Translations under genes and position numbers: made by a program
Notes under the pieces: model-generated
What the model was told of the DNA's origin: nothing
The model's database searches: none
Seen by the model: only the letters and a program-made list of their open reading frames with translations
In this document: in pieces, positions 54,514-63,458 of the stretch
Position numbering within the stretch: position 1 is the first letter of the stretch
Layout: every line of letters begins with the position of its first letter
NCBI RefSeq assembly: GCF_000317515.1
Contig: NC_019738.1
Span: 2,313,623-2,377,622 of the forward strand
Source of the DNA: Allocoleopsis franciscana PCC 7113
GTDB taxonomy: Bacteria; Cyanobacteriota; Cyanobacteriia; Cyanobacteriales; Coleofasciculaceae
DNA length: 64,000 nt
Direction: 5' to 3'

Positions 54514-54855
54514 TTAACTGTGCGACAAACTCTCTAAACTTAAGGGAACCATATCTCCACTTGTTGTCAGCCCCAATAACATCCGCTCGTCCGGTCGAAT
54601 AAACTTGCCCGTGAGTACACAGCGTTCTTCTTGTTGGGCGACAGCCTCTATACTGGCTCGGATATCAGACAAGGAAAATTCGGGGCGATAATCACCGGAT
54701 TTCTGTTGCACATAGTTCCAGAGTACGTCTCGTATCAGAGCTTGATATCCCTGGTTGCCTGAGAGTTCTTTGAGCTTCTCTTTGAGTTCTCTCTCTAAAC
54801 GGATGCTAGTAACTTCCATGTCAGTGGTTGCTGTTCTGGTGAGTGTACGCATCAT
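54514..54855 (-). CDS. Ribbon-helix-helix-type DNA-binding protein
   Basis: 113 residues; the family-like part probably begins at the second Met (MEVTSIRLERELKEKLKELS, residue 13), with a CopG/Arc-type strand and two helices at 13-50. The C-terminal part (60-110) is of unknown type, with one Cys. It is conserved in cyanobacteria as a probable transcription factor. Whether it uses ATG 54855 or a later Met is unclear. No toxin gene is adjacent, so I do not call it an antitoxin. Confidence 0.65.
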   Translation of the reverse strand: MMRTLTRTATTDMEVTSIRLERELKEKLKELSGNQGYQALIRDVLWNYVQQKSGDYRPEFSLSDIRASIEAVAQQEERCVLTGKFIRPDERMLLGLTTSGDMVPLSLESLSHS

Positions 54856-55294
54856 CTTTTTTTCTCCAAAATATCTGGACAGGTTTGTAATACCAGTGTA
54901 GTATGTAAAAGTCAGCTTTCAAATCGATCTTTACCAATTCACCTTCTGTGAGCCTTCATATATCTCTTTCCACCCTATGCCCTGATGCTGCCGCCCTTCG
55001 AGGTTGGCACTCAGTGACATCACGGGTGGATTTTTGGTATGAGGGCAGGTATAGCTTGAGAGAAGAACATAAAGCAGAGATTGGCAATCAATTTAATAAA
55101 GACGCCGGGAATTTCCTGGGTGTCAATAGCGAAGCGGGACGCAATAGCGTCTTTCCACAACGAGATACCAGCCGGGGGAGGTACAGGCGAAGAAGCGCCG
55201 TACCAACATAGGACAGGAAGACTGTAAACGTTTTCACCTAACCCCCGCTCCTAAACCAAAAGAAGCGGGGGTTTTAACTATGAGGAGGCAAACC
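54856..55294. other. Intergenic region upstream of the HNH nuclease
   Basis: 439 bases. The plus-strand frame of 87 codons at 54948 has no family match and no clear ribosome-binding site, and ends before a hairpin, so I reject it. A hairpin AACCCCCGCT / AGCGGGGGTT (55240-55249 with 55264-55273) followed by TTTTAAC precedes the nuclease start. Confidence 0.45.
55240..55275 (+). terminator. Hairpin just upstream of the HNH gene
   Basis: 10-bp perfect stem with a 14-base loop and TTTT tail, 19 bases before the GTG start at 55295. Possible terminator or attenuator controlling the nuclease gene. Confidence 0.6.
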
Positions 55295-55834
55295 GTGACG
55301 AGCGCAACTGAAGTGTTAAGGCAATCTGTGGTGGTGTTCTCGAAGAACTATCTGCCAGTCAGTCGAGTCAACATTAAGCGAGCGATCGCTCTCCTCGTGA
55401 CGGGGAAAGCTGAACCTCTAGATTTTACGATGGGCAAAGGAGGCAAAGGCATTGCCGTGCATTCACCCAGTGTGGTGCTATTGGTACCCGAACACATTCG
55501 CTTGACGATTACAGATCGAGAGCGGGTTTGGAAGGTGCCTCCTGTGAATCGACGGGAAGTTTTAAGACGAGATAAGCACACCTGTCAATACTGTGGCAGC
55601 ACCAAGAAGTTAACGCTCGATCACGTAATTCCCCGCTCAAAAGGCGGAAAACACACTTGGGACAACGTAGTTATAGCTTGCGAACGGTGTAATAGCCGAA
55701 AAGGCGATCGCACTCCCCTGCAAGCGGGAATGACGCTACGCACCCAGCCGAAAGCGCCAATGCACCCAACTGTTGCCTTCTCGGAGCAGTTCTGGCGTGA
55801 ACAGCAAGTAAACCTGGAGAGGCAGGAGATATAG
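55295..55834 (+). CDS. HNH endonuclease
   Basis: 179 residues. The start is GTG 55295: a perfect AGGAGG lies 7 bases upstream, inside the alternative frame from ATG 55280. N-terminal region (1-75) is beta-rich, with PVNRREVLRRDKHTCQYCGS as the start of the HNH zinc site. The motif is C-x2-C then LTLDHVIPRSKGG then W-x-N-x3-C-x2-C-N, with the His/Asn/His positions intact. This form is widespread in cyanobacteria and may be a house protein or a free-standing homing-type nuclease. Followed after 3 bases by the alr0857-type gene. Confidence 0.88.
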   Translation: MTSATEVLRQSVVVFSKNYLPVSRVNIKRAIALLVTGKAEPLDFTMGKGGKGIAVHSPSVVLLVPEHIRLTITDRERVWKVPPVNRREVLRRDKHTCQYCGSTKKLTLDHVIPRSKGGKHTWDNVVIACERCNSRKGDRTPLQAGMTLRTQPKAPMHPTVAFSEQFWREQQVNLERQEI

Positions 55835-55837
55835 CTG

Positions 55838-56218
55838 ATGCTGAAACTCACTTATACCGACAACGGCTTTTATTTAGAGCGTCTGGCTCAACCCCTTGAG
55901 GAATGGGTCACGGCACGAGTGATTCTGGCGCTGAGAGCGGGTACCAATCTCTGCGTCGAACCTAGCACGGCATCGTTTCTGCTCCCAGCGGACATGCCAC
56001 AGCTGCGTCATCTGGAACGGCATCAGGAAGGAGAAGATGCGATCGCTATCTCTAGGTGCGATGCTGAATACATCGAAGTCAGCCTCAAAGGAACTTGGAT
56101 GACTTCAGACATCGATGGTGCTGAAGGCGTGTTTGTAACATCCCTGAATTACGCAGTTGAATTCTTCCTGATCAAGCTGTGGGAAGAGTCTCAAATCCGG
56201 ACTAGCTGTCTGCCATAA
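55838..56218 (+). CDS. Conserved cyanobacterial protein, alr0857-like
   Basis: 126 residues, probably translated with the upstream HNH gene (3-base gap). The beginning MLKLTYTDNGFYLERLAQPL and the WVTARVILALRAG stretch resemble a small cyanobacterial family that I recall as alr0857-like. Mostly beta, soluble. Function unknown; the pairing with an HNH nuclease suggests a functional link, but that is inference. Confidence 0.65.
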   Translation: MLKLTYTDNGFYLERLAQPLEEWVTARVILALRAGTNLCVEPSTASFLLPADMPQLRHLERHQEGEDAIAISRCDAEYIEVSLKGTWMTSDIDGAEGVFVTSLNYAVEFFLIKLWEESQIRTSCLP

Positions 56219-56434: not shown

Positions 56435-56464
56435 TTGACACTTTATGTAGTATTTATGTAGTAT
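56435..56464 (+). promoter_or_regulatory. Candidate promoter of the tRNA array
   Basis: Consensus -35 TTGACA at 56435-56440 and a TAGTAT -10 candidate at 56459-56464, 18 bases apart. The -10 lies inside a triple TATTTATGTAG repeat, so alternative -10 positions exist. It is about 500 bases before the first tRNA. Confidence 0.45.
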
Positions 56465-56472: not shown

Positions 56473-56735
56473 TGAAGCAAAGAGCGGAGCTAAAAACTCC
56501 AACAACAAATCACTATGTTGCTACTACTGATTCGACTCTCCGGTCAACGCAGACCACGAAAAGAGTCAAACAAAAGACCGAATCAGCCTCCTTTCCAAAA
56601 ACCTGAAAGAGAGCAAGAACAACGGTCATCCGAACACATCAACCAAATACAAACCAACGTTCGCTATCACAAGATCAGACAGATATATCAACTAGAACGT
56701 CGGTTCTTTCTCTAAATCATCTAAGTCTTTTTACT

Positions 56736-56754: not shown

Positions 56755-56967
56755 AGAAAGCACCCATTTAATTCATCAATCTGTGCTGATAGTCATAGGC
56801 ACAGATGTCTTGAAGGGAAGCGTAGCTCAACTGTAATTTGTACAGAATGCTCTCAAGCCTGTTCTAAAAACCGTTGATTTCCTCTTACAAAAAGAGGTTA
56901 GGGTTAACACCTGCTACGTTCCCAAAAATCAAGACCTATAAATAGTGGGAATTGCTGATTGAGTCTT

Positions 56968-57040
56968 GGGACTGTAGCTCAGTGGTTAGAGCGTTCCCCT
57001 GTCGAGGGAAGGGTCGCCAGTTCAAATCTGGTCAGTCTCG
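56968..57040 (+). tRNA. tRNA-Asp(GTC)
   Basis: Acceptor GGGACTG / CAGTCTC (one G-U). Anticodon loop CTGTCGA. T-arm GCCAG-TTCAAAT-CTGGT. Discriminator G, no CCA. First array member; a different body from the second Asp tRNA at 57360. Confidence 0.9.
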
Positions 57041-57085
57041 CTCAACAGCAATTATGGAAGTTTCAATCTTCCTTTTCCCACACAT

Positions 57086-57158
57086 GGCCCCATCGTCTAG
57101 CGGTCAAGGATTTCTGAATTTCGATCAGAAGACACGGGTTCGAGTCCCGTTGGGGCTA
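57086..57158 (+). tRNA. tRNA-Glu(TTC)
   Basis: Acceptor GGCCCCA / TGGGGCT. Anticodon loop ATTTCGA (TTC). Glu-type D-arm (TCGTCTAGCGG). T-arm CGGG-TTCGAGT-CCCG. Discriminator A, no CCA. Confidence 0.88.
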
Positions 57159-57174
57159 TCAGATTGATGAACGA

Positions 57175-57248
57175 GGTCGAGTAGCCAAGTGGTTGAAGGC
57201 GTCAGTCTGCAAAACTGATACTCGTGGGTTCAAATCCCACCTCGACCT
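57175..57248 (+). tRNA. tRNA-Cys(GCA)
   Basis: Acceptor GGTCGAG / CTCGACC. Anticodon loop CTGCAAA, stem TCAGT/ACTGA. T-loop TTCAAAT. Discriminator T, as required for Cys identity. No CCA. Confidence 0.92.
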
Positions 57249-57274
57249 CTCAATCTGCACATCATCTGGTGCAT

Positions 57275-57347
57275 GGGAGTATAGCTCAACTGGCAGAGCA
57301 GACGGCTCTTAACCGTATGGTTGCAGGTTCGATCCCTGCTACTCCCA
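57275..57347 (+). tRNA. tRNA-Lys(CTT)
   Basis: Acceptor GGGAGTA / TACTCCC. Anticodon loop CTCTTAA; stem GACGG/CCGTA with one mismatch. T-arm GCAGG-TTCGATC-CCTGC. Discriminator A, no CCA. Body very similar to 57438. Confidence 0.88.
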
Positions 57348-57359
57348 CTCAGTACACAA

Positions 57360-57431
57360 GGCTCCATCGTCTAGTGGTTAGGACGCTGCTCTGTCGAAGC
57401 GGAGACAGGGGTTCAAATCCCCTTGGGGTCG
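57360..57431 (+). tRNA. tRNA-Asp(GTC) on a Glu-like body
   Basis: Acceptor GGCTCCA / TGGGGTC with G-U pairs. Anticodon loop CTGTCGA (GTC). The D-arm TCGTCTAGTGGTTAGGAC and the T-region match tRNA-Glu(CTC) at 57521 closely, so the aspartate anticodon sits on a glutamate-type scaffold. Discriminator G. Confidence 0.85.
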
Positions 57432-57437
57432 TTGTTT

Positions 57438-57509
57438 GGGAGTATAGCTCAGAGGTAGAGCAGTCCTCTCATAAGGGACTAGTCGCAGGTTCAAGTCCTG
57501 TTACTCCTA
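57438..57509 (+). tRNA. tRNA with CAT anticodon (Met elongator or Ile2)
   Basis: Acceptor GGGAGTA / TACTCCT (one G-U). Anticodon loop CTCATAA. Shares the D-arm and acceptor with the array tRNA-Lys(CTT). Discriminator A, no CCA. By sequence it could be methionine or, after lysidine modification, isoleucine; the body does not decide. Confidence 0.85.
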
Positions 57510-57520
57510 CTGACAAACAT

Positions 57521-57592
57521 AGCCTCATCGTCTAGTGGTTAGGACGCTGCCCCCTCAAGGCAGAGACAGGAGTTCAAATCTCCTTGGGGCTA
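57521..57592 (+). tRNA. tRNA-Glu(CTC), C33
   Basis: Acceptor AGCCTCA / TGGGGCT. Anticodon loop CCCTCAA, anticodon CTC. Position 33, nearly always U, is C here. Stem CTGCC/GGCAG. Discriminator A. Bacteria normally read GAG with tRNA-Glu(TTC) alone, so this is an extra isoacceptor. Confidence 0.8.
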
Positions 57593-57595
57593 TCT

Positions 57596-57681
57596 GGAGA
57601 GGTGGCTGAATTGGCTGAAAGCACTTCCCTGCTAAGGAAGCATGGGGTAACCCATTGCAGGTTCGACTCCTGTCCTCTCCG
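57596..57681 (+). tRNA. tRNA-Ser(GCT)
   Basis: Class II, 86 bases. Acceptor GGAGAGG / CCTCTCC. Anticodon loop CTGCTAA. Long variable arm with ATGGGGTAACCCAT stem. T-loop TTCGACT. Discriminator G. Confidence 0.94.
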
Positions 57682-57692
57682 CCTTTTTACTT

Positions 57693-57780
57693 GGGTCGGC
57701 CCGCCTATTAGCGTAGGCAACGGTCTGTAAAATCGCCGCGTCCGAAAGGCGCATTGCAGGTGCGACTCCTGCCCGACCCA
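57693..57780 (+). tRNA. tRNA-Tyr(GTA), degenerate
   Basis: Class II, 88 bases. Acceptor GGGTCGG / CCGACCC. Anticodon loop CTGTAAA. Long variable arm GCGTCCGAAAGGCGC. Position 8 is C and the T-loop is TGCGACT instead of TTCGACT, so it departs from consensus at conserved positions. Discriminator A. Confidence 0.82.
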
Positions 57781-57825
57781 TTGAATTTTGGATTTTAGAT
57801 TTTGGATTCAAAGTTCAAATCGGAT

Positions 57826-57900
57826 GTGGGGATAGTGTAACTGGCAACATCTCGATCTCCAAAATCGATGATCTGAGTTCAAATCTCAGTCCCCGCGCCA
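57826..57900 (+). tRNA. tRNA-Trp(CCA)
   Basis: Acceptor GTGGGGA / TCCCCGC (one G-U). Anticodon loop CTCCAAA. T-arm TGAG-TTCAAAT-CTCA. Discriminator G followed by encoded CCA (57898-57900). The 45-base spacer before it contains a GGATTTTAGATTTTGG-type repeat. Confidence 0.88.
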
Positions 57901-57906
57901 TTCAAT

Positions 57907-57981
57907 GAGAGCGTAGTTTAACTGGATAAAATATCGGTCTACGAAACCGAAGAGGTGGGGGTTCAAGTCCCTCCGCTCTCG
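57907..57981 (+). tRNA. tRNA-Arg(ACG)
   Basis: Acceptor GAGAGCG / CGCTCTC. Anticodon loop CTACGAA; A34 would need deamination to inosine. D-arm TAGTTTAACTGGATAAAAT is unusual in lacking the common GG pattern form. Discriminator G, no CCA. Confidence 0.88.
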
Positions 57982-57988
57982 TCAACTT

Positions 57989-58074
57989 GGAGAGGTGGCC
58001 GAGTGGCTTAAGGCGCAGACTTGGAAAGTCTGATTAGGTAAAACCTAACGCAGGTTCAAATCCTGTCCTCTCCG
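57989..58074 (+). tRNA. tRNA-Ser(GGA)
   Basis: Class II, 86 bases; same acceptor GGAGAGG / CCTCTCC as tRNA-Ser(GCT). Anticodon loop TTGGAAA. Long variable arm TTAGGTAAAACCTAA. Discriminator G. Confidence 0.93.
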
Positions 58075-58083
58075 TTGAAACTT

Positions 58084-58158
58084 CCCCCGGTAGCTCAGTT
58101 TGGTAAGAGCGCTTGACTGAAAATCAAGAGGTCGTCAGTTCGATACTGACCTGGGGGG
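58084..58158 (+). tRNA. tRNA-Phe(GAA)
   Basis: Acceptor CCCCCGG / CTGGGGG. Anticodon loop CTGAAAA, stem CTTGA/TCAAG. T-arm GTCAG-TTCGATA-CTGAC. Discriminator G, where bacterial Phe tRNAs normally have A; identity could be weak. Confidence 0.88.
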
Positions 58159-58165
58159 CTGTCGT

Positions 58166-58240
58166 TGCCTCATAGCTCAATGGTAGAGCCACGCGCTGTT
58201 AACGCGGGGGTTGTAGGTTCGAGTCCTACTGGGGCAGCCA
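58166..58240 (+). tRNA. tRNA-Asn(GTT)
   Basis: Acceptor TGCCTCA / TGGGGCA. Anticodon loop CTGTTAA. T-arm GTAGG-TTCGAGT-CCTAC. Discriminator G followed by encoded CCA. Confidence 0.92.
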
Positions 58241-58245
58241 TTTAT

Positions 58246-58320
58246 TGCTGGGTAGATGAATTGGTAAATCGAAGTGTAGCCAGCCAATTATAATAATAGG
58301 TTGAGTCCTGTACTTTGTTC
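58246..58320 (+). pseudogene. tRNA relic before the HNH gene
   Basis: GCTGGGTAGATGAATTGGTA resembles a tRNA 5' half, and ATAGG-TTGAGT-CCTGT is a T-arm with one base lost from the loop. The acceptor does not close, so it is a decayed tRNA, cut or displaced by the nuclease gene that starts at 58323. Confidence 0.5.
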
Positions 58321-58322
58321 CA

Positions 58323-59024
58323 ATGAAATACAGCAAAGAAGTTTTGGAAAAAGCTGTTAAACAGTCCTTCTCTGTAAGTGGGGTTTTAAGGAAACTTGGT
58401 ATCGCAGGTGGAGGAAGTCATGGTCACATAACTAGGCGTATTAAAGACTTGGGTATTGATACCTCTCACTTTAAAAAACAGGGCGAAAACTTGAAAGGGT
58501 TCAACCCCAAAAAGCCTTGGCAAGAAGTTTTGGTATTAAATTTGAGTAACAGAAGAAGGCCTGGCGTTCAACTGAGACAAGCCTTGTTAGAGATGGGGAA
58601 GGAGTATAAATGCGAAAATCCCCAATGTTCGATTCAAAGTGAGTGGTTAGGACGCAAGTTAGTTTTAGACGTTGACCACATAAATGGGAATTGGCAAGAT
58701 AACCGCCCAGAGAATCTAAGATTTCTCTGTCCTAACTGTCACAGACAAACTGCAACCTATGGGAATAAGCGCCAACAACTAGAAACAAAGAAGTACAGTT
58801 CGCACCCAAATAAAAAAGTTCCCCATCTGAAAGCCAGAAAAGTTGAGCGTCCTTCTAAGGATGAACTGGCGAAAATGATATGGGAAAAACCAACTACTCA
58901 TATAGCCAAGGATTTTGGTGTAAGTGGTAAGGCAATAGAAAAGTGGTGTAAAGCTTATGGCATCGAGAAACCTTCTAGAGGTTATTGGGCTAAAAAAAAT
59001 CAGTCTAAAACTTCTATGTTGTAG
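58323..59024 (+). CDS. HNH homing-type endonuclease inside the tRNA array
   Basis: 233 residues. A central zinc HNH site (CENPQC, VLDVDHINGNWQDNRPENLR, CPNCHRQ; residues about 98-145) carries the His-Asn-His catalytic set in the DHINGN...NL...CH pattern of phage and intron-type HNH enzymes. The N-terminal 50 residues and the C-terminal part (AKDFGVSGKAIEKWCKAYGI) look like two helix-turn-helix DNA-binding segments. It starts 3 bases after a tRNA relic and ends 16 bases before tRNA-Gln. Likely a free-standing nuclease that moves itself, and perhaps neighbouring tRNAs, between arrays. Confidence 0.88.
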   Translation: MKYSKEVLEKAVKQSFSVSGVLRKLGIAGGGSHGHITRRIKDLGIDTSHFKKQGENLKGFNPKKPWQEVLVLNLSNRRRPGVQLRQALLEMGKEYKCENPQCSIQSEWLGRKLVLDVDHINGNWQDNRPENLRFLCPNCHRQTATYGNKRQQLETKKYSSHPNKKVPHLKARKVERPSKDELAKMIWEKPTTHIAKDFGVSGKAIEKWCKAYGIEKPSRGYWAKKNQSKTSML

Positions 59025-59040
59025 GCTTAGCAAATTTCAT

Positions 59041-59115
59041 TGGGGAGTAGGCGACGTTGGCAAAGCCACCTGATTTTGGCTCAGGAAATCGCGGGTTCGA
59101 TTCCTGCCTCCCCAG
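59041..59115 (+). tRNA. tRNA-Gln(TTG)
   Basis: Acceptor TGGGGAG / CTCCCCA. Anticodon loop TTTTGGC. T-arm GCGGG-TTCGATT-CCTGC. Discriminator G. Confidence 0.9.
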
Positions 59116-59151
59116 TTCTGCTCTCTCGCTTTGATAGAGCAGCTAAGTAAT

Positions 59152-59225
59152 GCTCCTGTAGCCCAATCGGAAGAGGCAGCAAGCTTAAACCTTGCGCGTT
59201 GCTGGTTCAAGCCCAGCCAGGAGTA
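59152..59225 (+). tRNA. tRNA-Leu(TAA), short variable arm
   Basis: Acceptor GCTCCTG / CAGGAGT. Anticodon loop CTTAAAC (TAA). Only 74 bases: the variable region is five bases (GCGTT), so this leucine tRNA is class I and lacks the long arm of normal leucine tRNAs. T-arm GCTGG-TTCAAGC-CCAGC. Discriminator A, as for Leu. Confidence 0.85.
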
Positions 59226-59229
59226 CTAA

Positions 59230-59302
59230 CGGGATGTAATTCAGCGGCTAGAAGCCATGCTTTGGGAGCATGGAGTCGCAGGTTCAAATCCTGCCATCCC
59301 GA
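59230..59302 (+). tRNA. tRNA-Pro(TGG)
   Basis: Acceptor CGGGATG / CATCCCG (C1-G72 pair, typical of Pro). Anticodon loop TTTGGGA. T-loop TTCAAAT. Discriminator A. Confidence 0.93.
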
Positions 59303-59305
59303 TAT

Positions 59306-59379
59306 GCCCCTGTAGCCCAATCGGAAGAGGTGCCGCACTTAGAATGCGGAGGTTACTGGTTCAAGCCCAGTCAGGGGTA
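59306..59379 (+). tRNA. tRNA-Leu(TAG), short variable arm
   Basis: Acceptor GCCCCTG / CAGGGGT. Anticodon loop CTTAGAA (TAG). 74 bases with a 5-base variable region, same body as the array tRNA-Leu(TAA). Discriminator A. Non-canonical for leucine. Confidence 0.85.
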
Positions 59380-59388
59380 TTGGTGCGA

Positions 59389-59467
59389 TGCGGGTGAAGT
59401 AGCCACGGTAGGCTTGGAGGTCTCATAAGCCTCTTATCAGCAGGTTCGACTCCTGCCCCCGCCACCA
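59389..59467 (+). tRNA. tRNA-Met(CAT), possibly initiator-like
   Basis: Anticodon loop CTCATAA (CAT). Acceptor 1-7 TGCGGGT with CCCCGCC leaves 1-72 unpaired (T-C), a hallmark of initiator tRNA, although 7-66 is also mismatched. The three G-C pairs of the initiator anticodon stem are not complete (GAGGT/GCCTC). Encoded ACCA end. T-loop TTCGACT. Confidence 0.7.
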
Positions 59468-59471
59468 AAAT

Positions 59472-59543
59472 GCAGGCGTGGTGCAATGGCTAGCATAGGA
59501 GCGTCGTAACCTTCTGATGCGAGTTCAACTCTCGCCGCCTGCT
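59472..59543 (+). tRNA. tRNA-Thr(CGT)
   Basis: Acceptor GCAGGCG / CGCCTGC. Anticodon in GTCGTAA (CGT); stem AGGAG/CTTCT leaves a wide loop. T-arm GCGAG-TTCAACT-CTCGC. Discriminator T (usual Thr A), which questions charging. Confidence 0.8.
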
Positions 59544-59547
59544 TCGA

Positions 59548-59619
59548 GCAGATGTGGTGTAAGTGGCAACACAAGGGCATGGTAAGTCCTCGATGTGGGT
59601 TCGACCCCCGCCGCCTGCT
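59548..59619 (+). tRNA. tRNA-Thr(GGT)
   Basis: Acceptor GCAGATG / CGCCTGC with one mismatch. Anticodon loop ATGGTAA. T-loop TTCGACC. Discriminator T. Second of three adjacent Thr tRNAs with related bodies. Confidence 0.8.
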
Positions 59620-59630
59620 CCTTCAACCGT

Positions 59631-59701
59631 GCAGGTGTGATGTAACGGCAACATGAGGCTCTTGTAAAGCCTTCTTGCGAGTTCAAGTCTCGCCATCTGC
59701 T
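59631..59701 (+). tRNA. tRNA-Thr(TGT)
   Basis: Acceptor GCAGGTG / CATCTGC. Anticodon loop CTTGTAA, stem AGGCT/AGCCT. T-arm GCGAG-TTCAAGT-CTCGC. Discriminator T. Confidence 0.88.
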
Positions 59702-59747
59702 TGTGGCGATGCTAGAGGTCTTTTTTGGTAGTGGAGAGGAGGAAAAT

Positions 59748-60377
59748 ATGACAACCATGACGGTTACGGATGCTCTAGCAGAGTTGACGCTGTTGGAAAA
59801 GCGTATTGATTCAGCAAGAGTAGCTTTGGATAATAACACCTTAATTGCTGTTGTTGAAGTCGGCAAAGTGCCAACAGGCTTCAAATCTAGAGATGATCAT
59901 GCAGCACAAGCAAGAGCATCTTTGCAAAGGGTGGATGCTCTGATTGATCGCAGACGAGTCATCAAGAGAGCAATCGTTCTTTCTAATGCTTCGACGATGG
60001 TTTCTGTTGCAGGACAAGAGATGACAGTCGCAGAAGCCATTGAAATGAAGAGCTTCATCTCGTACTACAAAGAAGTTCTTGCCACGATTACCTCAGCTTA
60101 CTCTCGCACCTGCCAGGAGTACAAAGTTGCCCAAGCGCGAGTGAAGGAACGACTGGATAAACTGGCGATGGAAGTGTTAGGTAAGAATGCTTCTTCCGAG
60201 AAGTACGAGTCATTAGCCGATAGCTTCCTGGCACGCGAGGGAGTTGAGCTACTCGATCCAACTAACTTAGCAGAAGAAATTGCCAGACGAGTGACGTTTG
60301 TCGAACAGTTCGAGTCAACTTGCGATCGCGTTCTTTCAATTAGTAATGCGCGGACAATGATTGAAATTCCAGACTAA
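59748..60377 (+). CDS. Unrecognised helical protein inside the tRNA array
   Basis: 209 residues from ATG 59748; GGAGAGGAGG lies 6 bases upstream, so the frame back to 59703 is not used. Nearly all helix with long heptad-like stretches (LAELTLLEKRIDSARVAL, KRAIVLSNA, YKVAQARVKERLDKLAMEV), so probably a coiled-coil or bundle. No catalytic motif. The layout resembles small helical phage or DIP1984-like proteins, but I am not sure. Its place between two tRNAs suggests it was carried in with the array. Confidence 0.6.
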   Translation: MTTMTVTDALAELTLLEKRIDSARVALDNNTLIAVVEVGKVPTGFKSRDDHAAQARASLQRVDALIDRRRVIKRAIVLSNASTMVSVAGQEMTVAEAIEMKSFISYYKEVLATITSAYSRTCQEYKVAQARVKERLDKLAMEVLGKNASSEKYESLADSFLAREGVELLDPTNLAEEIARRVTFVEQFESTCDRVLSISNARTMIEIPD

Positions 60378-60421
60378 AATGGGCTTGCTGGTCACTCGAA
60401 AACCTCTAAATTTATGGTATT

Positions 60422-60497
60422 TGGTGGATAGCTCAATGGGTAGAGCGCATGACTTCCAATCATGAAGTTGTTGGTTCGAGTCCAACTCCATCAGCCA
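60422..60497 (+). tRNA. tRNA-Gly(TCC), first copy
   Basis: Acceptor TGGTGGA / TCCATCA (one G-U). Anticodon loop CTTCCAA, stem CATGA/TCATG. T-arm GTTGG-TTCGAGT-CCAAC. Discriminator G then encoded CCA. Gly tRNAs normally have T at 73. Confidence 0.88.
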
Positions 60498-60680
60498 TGA
60501 ATGTTAAAGCTTAAAGCTCAACGCTTAACGCTCAAACTTCAATCGTTAAAGATTAGACAGTTAACATTCAAACCATAAAGGTTAAAGCTCGATAAAATCC
60601 AGAGGTTCTGGTTGTAGGTTCCATAAAACCTTGAGGTTTCCACCTGGCTGAGTGGTCAGCATTCCACTTCTTTTAATCAA
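60498..60680. other. Repetitive spacer inside the array
   Basis: 183 bases of GTTAAAGCTC-like degenerate repeats, bounded at one end by an inverted pair TGAATGTTAA (60498-60507) and TTAACATTCA (60561-60570). Near 60641-60680, GGCTGAGTGGTCAGC and TTCTTTTAATC resemble the 5' half of a decayed tRNA. No coding frame. Confidence 0.45.
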
Positions 60681-60751
60681 GCGGATATGGTGTAACGCTA
60701 GCATCTGAGCCTTCCAAGCTTTAGGTACGAGTTCAAATCTCGTTGTCCGCT
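60681..60751 (+). tRNA. tRNA-Gly(TCC), second copy
   Basis: Acceptor GCGGATA / TGTCCGC. Anticodon loop CTTCCAA; anticodon stem GAGC/GCTT weakly paired. T-arm ACGAG-TTCAAAT-CTCGT. Discriminator T, as typical of Gly. Confidence 0.82.
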
Positions 60752-60761
60752 TTTGAAACTT

Positions 60762-60833
60762 GCGGGTGTGATGTAGTGGCTAGCATCTGAGTCTGCCAGT
60801 CTCAGCGCATGGGTTCAAGTCCCATCATCCGCT
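60762..60833 (+). tRNA. tRNA-Gly(GCC)
   Basis: Acceptor GCGGGTG / CATCCGC. Anticodon in CTGCCAG (GCC) with stem CTGAG/CTCAG. T-arm ATGGG-TTCAAGT-CCCAT. Discriminator T. Its body GCGGGTGTGATGTAG is close to the Thr(TGT) body GCAGGTGTGATGTAA. Confidence 0.85.
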
Positions 60834-60838
60834 TCCGT

Positions 60839-60914
60839 AGTCCTGTAGCTCAGTCGGGAGAGCGCCTCTCTTACAAAGAGGATGTCACAGGTTCAAACCC
60901 TGTCAGGACTACCA
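60839..60914 (+). tRNA. tRNA-Val(TAC)
   Basis: Acceptor AGTCCTG / CAGGACT. Anticodon loop CTTACAA, stem CCTCT/AGAGG. T-arm ACAGG-TTCAAAC-CCTGT. Discriminator A with encoded CCA. Confidence 0.94.
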
Positions 60915-60919
60915 ATCAT

Positions 60920-60993
60920 GGGAGTGTAACTCAACTGGATAGAGTACCAATCTTCTAAATTGGCTGCTGTAGGTTCAAGTCCTACCACTCCTG
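60920..60993 (+). tRNA. tRNA-Arg(TCT)
   Basis: Acceptor GGGAGTG / CACTCCT. Anticodon loop CTTCTAA, stem CCAAT/ATTGG. T-arm GTAGG-TTCAAGT-CCTAC. Discriminator G. Confidence 0.93.
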
Positions 60994-61091
60994 TTAAACA
61001 TAAAATAAAAGGAGGTTGCCTTCTTCTGATATTAATTGAACAGGATAGTGCGATCGTACCTTATTCTCCACCTAATTGATAGGTAAATAGT

Positions 61092-61547
61092 ATGACAATT
61101 TACTTTTACAGCACTCGCGAAAAACCCTACGGCTGTTTTTCCAACTTTTCACAGCATGGTTTTGAGCTTGATGGAGCTTGGTGGGCGACTAGCGAGCATT
61201 ACTTTCAAGCACAGAAATTTATCGATACTGATCGCCCTTGGTTCGACAAAATCCGGGAGGTAAAAACGCCGAAAGAAGCAGCAAAGATGGGACGCGATCG
61301 CTCTCACCCCCTGCGTGGTGATTGGGAACAGGTCAAAGATGAAATTATGCAGCAAGCCGTGTTGCAGAAATTTAAAACTCATGCTGATATTCGCGAGATA
61401 CTTCTTGCTACAGGCGATGAAGTAATTGTTGAAAATTCTCCCATTGATTACTACTGGGGGTGCGGTAAAGATGGTAGCGGAAAAAATAGACTGGGAGAGA
61501 TTTTAATGGCAGTGCGAGAAATCCTGCGTCAACAACAAAATCGCTAA
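61092..61547 (+). CDS. NADAR-domain protein (YbiA family)
   Basis: 151 residues, the whole length is the NADAR domain: YSTREKPYGCFSNFSQHGF, TSEHYFQAQKF, GRDRSHPLRGDW, and the C-terminal YYWGCGKDGSGKNRLGEILM. Family members hydrolyse N-glycosidic bonds of riboflavin intermediates, and some remove ADP-ribose from guanine bases as antidotes to ADP-ribosylating toxins. Here it sits alone between two tRNA genes of the array with its own gap on each side (98 and 33 bases). A link to nucleic-acid modification or defence is an inference from location. Confidence 0.9.
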   Translation: MTIYFYSTREKPYGCFSNFSQHGFELDGAWWATSEHYFQAQKFIDTDRPWFDKIREVKTPKEAAKMGRDRSHPLRGDWEQVKDEIMQQAVLQKFKTHADIREILLATGDEVIVENSPIDYYWGCGKDGSGKNRLGEILMAVREILRQQQNR

Positions 61548-61580
61548 AGATTTCGATTCAACTGTTATTCACTAAAACAT

Positions 61581-61653
61581 GGGTCTGTAGTTCCAATGGG
61601 AGAACGCTTCTCTTGCAAAGAAGAGGTTGTGGGTTCGACCCCCACCAGATCCA
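61581..61653 (+). tRNA. tRNA-Ala(TGC)
   Basis: Acceptor GGGTCTG / CAGATCC. Anticodon loop CTTGCAA, stem CTTCT/AGAAG. T-arm GTGGG-TTCGACC-CCCAC. Discriminator A. The usual Ala identity pair G3-U70 is present (G3 opposite T70). Confidence 0.92.
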
Positions 61654-61658
61654 CTTAC

Positions 61659-61734
61659 GGTGTCTGAAGCCAAAGCGGTCGCGGCGCTGGTTTGTGGAAC
61701 CAGTCATTAGCGGGTTCGAGGCCCGTCAGACACC
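61659..61734 (+). tRNA. tRNA-His(GTG)
   Basis: Eight-bp acceptor GGTGTCTG / CAGACACC, that is, an encoded G-1 opposite C73, the histidine identity element. Anticodon loop TTGTGGA, stem CTGGT/ACCAG. T-arm CGGG-TTCGAGG-CCCG. Confidence 0.93.
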
Positions 61735-61739
61735 CTCAA

Positions 61740-61826
61740 GGAAGGTGCCGCCGAGTGGACGGCAAGCAGTCTTGAAAACTGTGGTACGGCAGCGATGTCG
61801 TAAGGGTTCGAGTCCTTCATCTTCCT
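61740..61826 (+). tRNA. tRNA-Ser(TGA)
   Basis: Class II, 87 bases. Acceptor GGAAGGT / ATCTTCC. Anticodon loop CTTGAAA. Long variable arm. T-stem one mismatch. It is followed directly by a run of eight T, which may end the transcript. Confidence 0.88.
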
Positions 61827-61834
61827 TTTTTTTA
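61826..61834 (+). terminator. T-run after tRNA-Ser(TGA)
   Basis: Eight to nine T immediately after the Ser acceptor stem. The acceptor hairpin plus T-run could act as a terminator; the opposite-strand LAGLIDADG gene ends here as well. Confidence 0.4.
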
Positions 61835-62251
61835 CATTTTGACTTTCGTAGAGTTTTTGAAAAATTCAATTTCAACTTGACGTATCTTTTCCAAAATCTC
61901 TGGAGTGTAATAACCATTTTTTGGCAATAGATTTGGATAGTTTTCTATAATTAGACGCGCTCTTCTTGCTTTTTCTTTTTCTTTCAAATAGGGTGCCAGT
62001 AATTTAAGCACTTTTAACGCACCTTGGCGACCAATCTTCCAATGATAAGCTTCGCTGTGTTTTTCTTTGGCTTTCTGAGCTATACAAACCGAGCCGCCAA
62101 AGTGATCTTTCATAAACATGACAAGTTCAATAGATGTGCTACTCATGGTTAGATATGGTGCCCTTTGTCCGCCTTTATTAGTACGAATGAGGCAAATACT
62201 TCCTTCCCCATCCATTAATCCGGCTGCATAAGCCAGTATGGTTTTGTCCAT
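61832..62251 (-). CDS. LAGLIDADG-type homing endonuclease, opposite strand in the array
   Basis: 139 residues, one LAGLIDADG motif: YAAGLMDGEGSICLIR at about 8-23, the last Glu/Gly giving the catalytic acid. A single-motif protein acts as a homodimer. The middle part (SVCIAQKAKEKHSEAYHWKIG) fits the DNA-binding saddle. It is the only array-internal gene on the minus strand, lying between tRNA-Ser and tRNA-Ile. No intron or intein context is present, so it is free-standing. Likely a selfish element or an agent for the spread of the array. Confidence 0.9.
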   Translation of the reverse strand: MDKTILAYAAGLMDGEGSICLIRTNKGGQRAPYLTMSSTSIELVMFMKDHFGGSVCIAQKAKEKHSEAYHWKIGRQGALKVLKLLAPYLKEKEKARRARLIIENYPNLLPKNGYYTPEILEKIRQVEIEFFKNSTKVKM

Positions 62252-62288
62252 GAAAATACTTGGAAGTAGTAAAGATTAACTGTTATGA

Positions 62289-62360
62289 CCACTGGAGGCT
62301 GAAAAGTGAAGCACCGTGCTGATAACGCGGCGATAGAAGGGGCAGTACCTTCCCAGTGGA
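62289..62360 (+). tRNA. tRNA-Ile(GAT), aberrant T-loop
   Basis: Acceptor CCACTGG / CCAGTGG, perfect. Anticodon loop CTGATAA, stem CCGTG/CGCGG. T-stem GAAGG/CCTTC closes GGCAGTA instead of the normal TTCRANY loop. D-arm short. Discriminator A. Shape is preserved but the T-loop is degenerate. Confidence 0.72.
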
Positions 62361-62363
62361 TTT

Positions 62364-62433
62364 CCCTTACCTGCCGGATGCAGACCTGTTTTTCCTAAAG
62401 ACGGTGTGCCAGGTTCAACTCCTGGGTAAGGGG
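62364..62433 (+). tRNA. tRNA-Arg(CCT)
   Basis: Acceptor CCCTTAC / GTAAGGG. Anticodon loop TTCCTAA with T-A/G-C/T-G pairs. T-arm CCAGG-TTCAACT-CCTGG. Discriminator G. 70 bases. Confidence 0.82.
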
Positions 62434-62436
62434 TCA

Positions 62437-62510
62437 TTCCTCGATCGCACAATCGCAGAACACTCATTTATTAACCGCAGGGTTCCTGTATCAAATCCAG
62501 GTCGAGGAGT
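62437..62510 (+). pseudogene. tRNA relic (Asn-like)
   Basis: Acceptor TTCCTCG / CGAGGAG pairs well and a T-loop ATCAAAT is seen, but the anticodon stem does not pair and the D-arm is eroded. The loop region TTATTAA would give anticodon ATT. Probably a decayed tRNA. Confidence 0.5.
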
Positions 62511-62520
62511 TCATATAAAT

Positions 62521-62592
62521 GGGGATGTAGCTCGATGGCAGAGCAATCGGCTTTTAACCGATTGGGTGTGGGTTCGAGTCCCACCATCCCCA
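62521..62592 (+). tRNA. tRNA-Lys(TTT)
   Basis: Acceptor GGGGATG / CATCCCC. Anticodon loop CTTTTAA, stem ATCGG/CCGAT. T-arm GTGGG-TTCGAGT-CCCAC. Discriminator A. Last array member. Confidence 0.95.
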
Positions 62593-62611
62593 CTAATTCA
62601 CCCATTCCTTG

Positions 62612-62842
62612 TCAGTCACTTGTGGGGTTAGCGTCAGGGTCATAATTGCCCGTGGGCTGGAGTTTGGTCATCATCTGTCTGAGGAGGAAAGCATTGCTAT
62701 TCCACGCGGTGTATTGATTTGAGCCTCGCCCTCTCTGCCTCAGATAGAGTTCAGCTTTATCCCGGCAGCAAGTCGCCAGTAAGCTGATGACCGATACTAG
62801 ACCAAGTTCATCAATCAGTTCCATCAGGTCATCTTGAGCCAT
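62612..62842 (-). CDS. Small unknown protein downstream of the array
   Basis: 76 residues; a strong GGAGG lies 8 bases before ATG 62842 on the minus strand. Helical N-terminus with a Cys pair (LLATCCRDKAELYL), then a polar C-terminus. No family recognised. The palindrome at 62887-62903 lies in its upstream region and may be its operator. Confidence 0.6.
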   Translation of the reverse strand: MAQDDLMELIDELGLVSVISLLATCCRDKAELYLRQRGRGSNQYTAWNSNAFLLRQMMTKLQPTGNYDPDANPTSD

Positions 62843-63239: not shown

Positions 63240-63458
63240 ATGGCAACCAAGATGACGCTCAGCATCAAGCTAGACCCTGAAGTAAAGAGGCAACTAGAGG
63301 AGATAGCTAAACAGCAAAACACCAGTCTCAATAGGCTGGTGCTGAAGTACATATCACAAGGTATTCAAGCTGATATTGGGGAACCAGATAGGCTAGCGGC
63401 TATTGAGGCGAGGTTGGATGCGATCGAGCGTCGGTTGAATGAGGTGTATGGACAATAA
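63240..63458 (+). CDS. Ribbon-helix-helix protein with coiled-coil tail
   Basis: 72 residues. MTLSIKLDPEVKRQLEEIAK gives the strand and helix, NTSLNRLVLKYISQGI the second helix, and the C-terminal 25 residues are a heptad helix (AAIEARLDAIERRLNEV). Arc/CopG-like repressor or antitoxin-type. It may start at ATG 63240 or at ATG 63252. Divergent from the other RHH gene. Confidence 0.75.
   Translation: MATKMTLSIKLDPEVKRQLEEIAKQQNTSLNRLVLKYISQGIQADIGEPDRLAAIEARLDAIERRLNEVYGQ

Follow-up and report, generated by a model that had tools for sequence, protein, structure and literature searches.

What use does Allocoleopsis franciscana PCC 7113 have for 31 to 33 tRNA genes packed on one strand of its chromosome contig? 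The genes form an array in a stretch of 64,000 nucleotides (NC_019738.1, positions 2,313,623 to 2,377,622; hereafter the window, whose coordinates are used below), which lies on the 7.47-Mb contig of a genome of 7.97 Mb in 9 contigs. A first-pass annotation, made from the letters alone, took them for an accessory second set whose role was unresolved. The latter judgement is outdated. The counterpart in Anabaena sp. PCC 7120, the trn operon, is silenced by the repressor TrcR, remains silent in normal growth and is induced by translation stress and by inhibitors such as translation-blocking antibiotics (PMC10272220), and a likely trcR gene and TrcR-type operators are present at our locus. We therefore propose, with a probability of about 0.7, that the array is a chromosomal, self-regulated trn operon that would serve as an emergency translation kit under RNA damage or a block of protein synthesis.

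ARAGORN called 31 tRNA genes in the array, all on the plus strand and packed in 5.6 kb, which places it above the more than 20 tightly spaced genes on one strand by which an L-array or trn operon is recognized. Most of the gene models passed the covariance score; 27 of the 31 reached or exceeded the gathering score of the Rfam tRNA model, and a small-window search with this model gave 28, the added gene being His (39.3 bits). Only the tRNA-Sec model scored Ser-TGA and the second CAT tRNA (37.4 and 28.6 bits, respectively, both below its gathering score), and the Rfam search gave no covariance-model match for Arg-CCT. A Tyr-GTA gene was missed by ARAGORN and Rfam here and was seen by eye; ARAGORN calls Tyr-GTA at the equivalent position of the array in a sister genome (G001). 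An Ile-GAT candidate has a cloverleaf fold (z −2.4), but its T loop, GGCAGUA, departs from the usual UUCRANY; it is scored by neither ARAGORN nor the Rfam model. The array total is 31 to 33 genes, so the initial count of 33 described a real one-strand array and overstated it slightly. Its claim to all 20 amino acids holds for 19, of which 18 come from program calls and Tyr from inspection. Coverage of Ile would depend either on the degenerate gene or on a lysidine-type identity of one of the two CAT tRNAs.

The array is a redundant second tRNA set beside a dispersed housekeeping set, as had been supposed. At least 39 tRNAs are encoded elsewhere in the genome, and 24 of the 28 array anticodons were found again there; the possibility that the array is the main set was rejected on this ground. 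The other four anticodons (Glu-CTC, Lys-CTT, Leu-TAG, and Arg-CCT) were not found elsewhere, in a search that scored 150 of 442 candidates and in which intron-split genes are undetectable; therefore, this result is no evidence of their absence. A pattern search of the genome, to which intron-split genes are likewise invisible, found neither a housekeeping Leu-TAG nor a housekeeping Ile-GAT. The array genes are 49–80% identical to the housekeeping gene of the same anticodon and often no nearer to it than to other tRNAs. Therefore, they are not recent copies, and a recent duplication of host genes was rejected. When the pairs of the anticodon and T stems were compared with those of the housekeeping counterparts, 265 of 270 were intact and 119 of these were altered on both sides, a count that overstates constraint because ARAGORN favours paired genes. 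Apart from the anticodon itself, the loops share 81% of their positions with the housekeeping loops, and the anticodon stems share 40%.

The likely repressor gene lies approximately 2 kb upstream of the array (Table 1). Its product gives a weak match to the ribbon-helix-helix (RHH) fold and carries Leu at residue 44, the position whose mutation inactivates TrcR. Divergent from it are an HNH gene and a gene of the alr0857 family, which also adjoin all0854 in Anabaena. The promoter motif, Leu44, and neighbourhood, rather than a direct alignment with All0854, indicate that this gene is likely trcR, the counterpart of all0854. Of 57 relatives, 47 have a trcR homologue. With tblastn, phages gave no match and plasmids a single weak one, although two phage homologues have been reported (PMC10272220). 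Another RHH gene, at 63240, was dropped as the repressor in favour of the upstream gene, whose motif and neighbourhood agree with those of TrcR. It is an RHH-like ORF (open reading frame; 63240–63458, plus strand) that lies just downstream of the array together with a 76-residue ORF (62612–62842, minus strand). Both are conserved there in several relatives, which suggests a shared chromosomal site.

TrcR of Anabaena silences the trn operon at a TGTAGTAT that overlies the −10 box; TrcR is lost when elongation is blocked, and trn is then induced (PMC10272220). The TrcR-repressed genes of that organism include rtcB, rsgA, rimK, and HNH and GNAT genes (PMC10272220). The promoter of our array has the layout TTGACA-N5-TGTAGTAT-TTA-TGTAGTAT. 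The tandem pattern TGTAGTAN{3,5}TGTAGTA occurs at eight sites in the genome, against none for the reversed pattern. When one operator alone was sought behind TTGAC, with wide gaps allowed, nine sites matched in the genome and nine in the control; therefore, the tandem sites alone were used. Five of them stand before the array, rtcB, a pair of genes for a VWA-like and an ARPP-1 protein, a second bL12 gene that has a DIP1984-family gene downstream, and a gene for an Eis-like GNAT acetyltransferase, and the three further sites have no clear target. RtcB is an RNA ligase that repairs cut tRNA and rRNA. The second bL12 (ribosomal protein L7/L12) has a Pro-rich linker (L116:8888-9274; genome C1:7091888-7092274), and the other bL12 of the genome is at 1612429. 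The ARPP-1 protein and the 456-residue VWA-like protein are encoded at L115:6233-8559. Assignment of the latter to the Ro/TROVE proteins was rejected because it gave a weak match to Pfam VWA_CoxE (E 0.042) and had no solved relative; it is called VWA-like only.

This arrangement recurs among loci and genomes that are related, so that the following counts are non-independent. In 47 of 54 array loci, which were taken from relatives and from named trcR loci, a same-strand TGTAGTAT lies upstream of the first tRNA at no more than 800 nt; the chance expectation from window composition is well under one in total. The operators are mostly in tandem, 10–12 nt apart and behind CCCTTGACA. An array of at least five tRNAs is present in 28 of 57 genomes, with trcR within 6 kb in 8 of the 28, from five families. 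Among 80 named trcR loci, which were picked without regard to arrays, 25 likewise have an array of this size no more than 10 kb away. Many of the trcR-linked arrays are on Nostoc contigs, and one is in the nearly complete genome of Cylindrospermum NIES-4074. On four Nostocales plasmids, the array has an orthologue of the alr0856-like HNH gene (~69% identical) and operators directly upstream, with neither trcR nor alr0857. In the simplest reading, the plasmid arrays would derive from the trcR-linked locus. In Mastigocoleus and Calothrix (L135, L138, L139, and L132), what comes after the trcR-adjacent operator is not a set of tRNAs but a macrodomain-like gene (judged by eye) and a NADAR gene, joined in Mastigocoleus by a GNAT gene.

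Between the operators and the first tRNA lies a leader ORF. Its family consists of proteins of 58–73 residues with a hydrophobic start and the conserved end YxLERRxF, encoded downstream of operators in arrays, mostly trcR-linked, and also in some operons that have an operator and no array. When 117 genomes were searched with a profile, 29 further places were examined, some of which overlap the loci that built the profile; TGTAGTA was present within 200 nt upstream in 20 of the 29, and most are followed by tRNAs. In two genomes (G085 and G102), a bL12 paralogue is also downstream of the leader ORF. Among the array loci compared, it is lacking where the leader is short. Nostoc copies have a ratio of nonsynonymous to synonymous polymorphism (pN/pS) of ~0.43, indicating purifying selection. 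The product may be either a translation sensor or a small protein with a job of its own. The leader region also holds a structured tRNA-like relic (56815–56926) that is closed by a stem of 11 bp and whose anticodon arm is Val-like and carries an extra insert. It folds much better than shuffled sequences (z −4.0) and is retained in G001.

Table 1. Features of the trn locus of A. franciscana PCC 7113 in window coordinates.
Feature	Position	Strand	Basis
trcR, RHH transcriptional repressor (likely), 112 aa from ATG at 54852	54514..54855	-	motif, Leu44, neighbourhood
trcR autoregulatory operator (putative), ATACTACACTGGTATTAC	54887..54904	-	17/18 bases of published motif ATACTACACTTGTATTAC
HNH endonuclease, alr0856-like	55280..55834	+	Pfam HNH, 60.9 bits
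alr0857-family protein	55838..56218	+	NCBIfam NF045647, 171.9 bits (cut-off 75)
Promoter TTGACA and tandem TrcR-type operators TGTAGTAT (56446-56453, 56457-56464)	56435..56464	+	
Conserved leader ORF, 66 aa, ending IRQIYQLERRFFL	56515..56715	+	
tRNA array, 31 genes	56968..62593	+	ARAGORN and Rfam tRNA model
tRNA-Tyr (GTA), long-armed	57692..57780 (approx.)	+	sequence inspection, fold
HNH endonuclease in array, homing type by context	58323..59024	+	Pfam HNH_3; phrog_10822, E 1e-50
orf224, DIP1984-like coiled protein, phrog_1491	59748..60377	+	
NADAR protein (ADP-ribose-guanine hydrolase family)	61092..61547	+	Pfam NADAR, 151.3 bits (cut-off 35.1)
Homing-endonuclease-like ORF, weak LAGLIDADG	61832..62251	-	phrog_5046, E 4e-20; Pfam LAGLIDADG_1 below cut-off
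Degenerate tRNA-Ile (GAT) without normal T loop	62289..62359 (approx.)	+	cloverleaf fold

Four protein genes interrupt the array. Homologues of one of them, orf224, occur in ~695 phage records and on plasmids of Bacillus, Priestia, Deinococcus, and other hosts, and a homologue recurs in the tRNA arrays of relatives. On IMG/VR contigs with a homologue, a tRNA was present within 3 kb in 36 of 40 cases; among the contigs with tRNAs, 25 were non-redundant, and in these the two lay a median of 281 bp apart, compared with 2.9 kb for random placement. Homologues lie in or beside the tRNA clusters of Vibrio phage Cody, Cronobacter phage GAP31, Lactococcus phage AM11, and the T5-like phage Gostya9, and away from such clusters in Pseudomonas phages phiPsa381 and XD2 and in a Deinococcus plasmid. 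No fitting Pfam family was found for orf224. Its scores against the DIP1984 family are below the curated cut-offs (NCBIfam DIP1984, 12.3 bits vs 70; Pfam DUF6847, 10.9 vs 27), and we therefore call it DIP1984-like and not a member. The best Foldseek match of its predicted structure (pLDDT, the predicted local distance difference test score, 78) was 3kdq, DIP1984 of Corynebacterium diphtheriae (E 0.017). VIA-align superimposed all 153 residues on 3kdq at 3.6 Å with Z 10.8, the next best match having Z 8.0, although for long-helix proteins Z below 13 may reflect a common arrangement. A literature search on the function of DIP1984 gave nothing, and our analyses gave no support for the database label "tail fiber" of orf224. 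In four viral contigs (L244–L247), the cluster that holds the orf224 homologue also includes a tRNA predicted to be a suppressor (Stop-TTA), a hint of stop-codon recoding.

The tRNAs themselves show further peculiarities. The array Leu tRNAs at 59152–59226 and 59305–59380 are short-armed (type I), and a short arm (72–79 positions) is found in most array Leu tRNAs of this genome and its relatives, whereas the housekeeping Leu tRNAs are longer (80–84). Several cyanobacterial arrays (L089, L090, L093, and L097) contain a tRNA with the anticodon CTA, which ARAGORN labels Pyl; this is possibly an amber suppressor or a mutated gene.

The following mechanism would account for the locus as a trn operon. 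TrcR would bind the tandem TGTAGTAT over the promoter and thereby silence the array. Under a translation block or RNA damage, the level of TrcR would drop, and a single transcript would be produced and processed to the spare tRNAs. The same operators would release rtcB, the bL12 paralogue with its DIP1984-family gene, the ARPP-1/VWA-like pair, and the Eis-like acetyltransferase, while the array itself would supply NADAR and orf224. The spare tRNAs would then sustain protein synthesis during repair of the damaged RNAs. That TrcR represses the operon and translation inhibitors induce it is taken from Anabaena and would apply to strain PCC 7113 by analogy. We infer that in this strain the tRNAs are processed, charged, and used, and that the natural trigger may be an antibiotic, a toxin, or a phage.

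Several points weigh against this explanation. In Anabaena, deletion of trn left the kasugamycin and beta-N-methylamino-L-alanine (BMAA) resistance of the trcR mutant unchanged (PMC10272220), so that any benefit would be conditional and not general. Expression of the array in strain PCC 7113 is a prediction from Anabaena. Some genes are degenerate, namely Ile, Arg-CCT, and the leader relic. Four draft genomes (G010, G011, G012, and G016) have arrays with operators, and a profile search found no trcR in them; these may use another repressor or none, or the drafts may have missed trcR.

The first-pass annotation had suggested insurance against anticodon nucleases. In its specific form, array tRNAs would resist cleavage by host toxins, colicin-like effectors, or anti-phage RNases and would replace the cut ones. 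The tandem operator shared by the array and rtcB, whose product rejoins cut RNA, is consistent with this idea, as are the phage precedent (PMC10264068, PMC11555353) and the presence of orf224 in tRNA-rich phages. However, the loop-mutation pattern of the phage type (PMC10264068) was looked for in a comparison with the housekeeping tRNAs and not seen, the loops being far better conserved than the stems. Moreover, near-complete amino-acid coverage exceeds the need posed by any single nuclease, and the known inducers are ribosome inhibitors (PMC10272220). We consider the suggestion unlikely.

Still less probable is a decaying mobile passenger, that is, a phage or plasmid array spread by homing endonucleases with little use to the host. 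The two homing-type endonuclease genes inside the array, the degenerate tRNAs, the phage relatives of orf224 and NADAR, and the occurrence of arrays on plasmids would fit such an origin. However, the stems have been maintained through double changes, the single promoter/operator design has been kept across families, the leader ORF is under purifying selection, and linkage to a chromosomal host repressor is recurrent. A survival benefit in Anabaena is also reported (PMC10272220, citing Luque and colleagues). Codon supplementation, or a partly essential set, is very improbable: the anticodons CTC, CTT, TAG, and CCT were not found elsewhere among the 150 of 442 candidates scored, but these may be missed genes, 24 of 28 anticodons are redundant, an operator-controlled promoter is ill suited to routine use, and in Anabaena the operon stays silent as long as growth is normal (PMC10272220).

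The emergency operon proposed here resembles the Anabaena trn operon (PMC10272220) in its one-strand organization, its ~26–31 supernumerary tRNAs, the TGTAGTAT operator over the promoter, and a TrcR-type RHH repressor. The HNH and alr0857-family genes beside trcR and an rtcB gene behind the same kind of operator are also common to both (PMC10272220). In contrast, the array is here on a chromosome contig, 2 kb from trcR, whereas Anabaena has trcR on the chromosome and the array on plasmid delta. The tandem operators, the leader ORF, and the internal orf224, NADAR, and endonuclease genes also distinguish our locus, as do the bL12 paralogue and the ARPP-1/VWA-like genes that share its operator. 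Mycobacterium tRNA array units (PMC5966550; linear plasmids of M. avium, PMC12803027) are similar in having 26–27 redundant divergent tRNAs and an embedded HNH gene, but arrays of that type are on plasmids, phages, or chromosomes of Actinobacteria. The tRNA clusters of phages (T5-like, Seunavirus, and Thalassavirus) are likewise dense and one-stranded and contain an orf224 homologue (phrog_1491); however, they belong to viral genomes, have no TrcR operators, and have been proposed to counter host tRNA nucleases (PMC10264068, PMC11555353). The enterobacterial RNA repair operon rtcBA (PMC7790460) also places RtcB under stress induction in a response to RNA damage, but through the activator RtcR instead of an RHH repressor.

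A wider proposal is that the locus is the core of a translation-damage response, in which one array-adjacent repressor would jointly release tRNAs, bL12, an RNA ligase, ADP-ribose-removing enzymes, and acetyltransferases. A leader peptide sensing stalled ribosomes would provide a second control, and the phage-shared, DIP1984-like orf224 would act directly on the array tRNAs or on the ribosome. We regard this extension as tentative and, as a whole, rather doubtful. This kind of array is already known. In the open-access literature searched, the recurrent linkage to trcR, the leader ORF, the association with orf224, and the tandem operators before a spare bL12 appear to be new.

The tRNA operon that is silent on a plasmid of Anabaena thus has recurrent chromosomal counterparts linked to a likely repressor gene of their own. 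The tandem operator of the array also stands before genes for RNA repair and for a spare ribosomal protein. Two unstudied proteins, the leader ORF product and orf224, the latter found in both bacterial and phage tRNA arrays, can now be tested. The purpose of tRNA arrays, a long-standing question, becomes directly testable in laboratory Nostoc strains.

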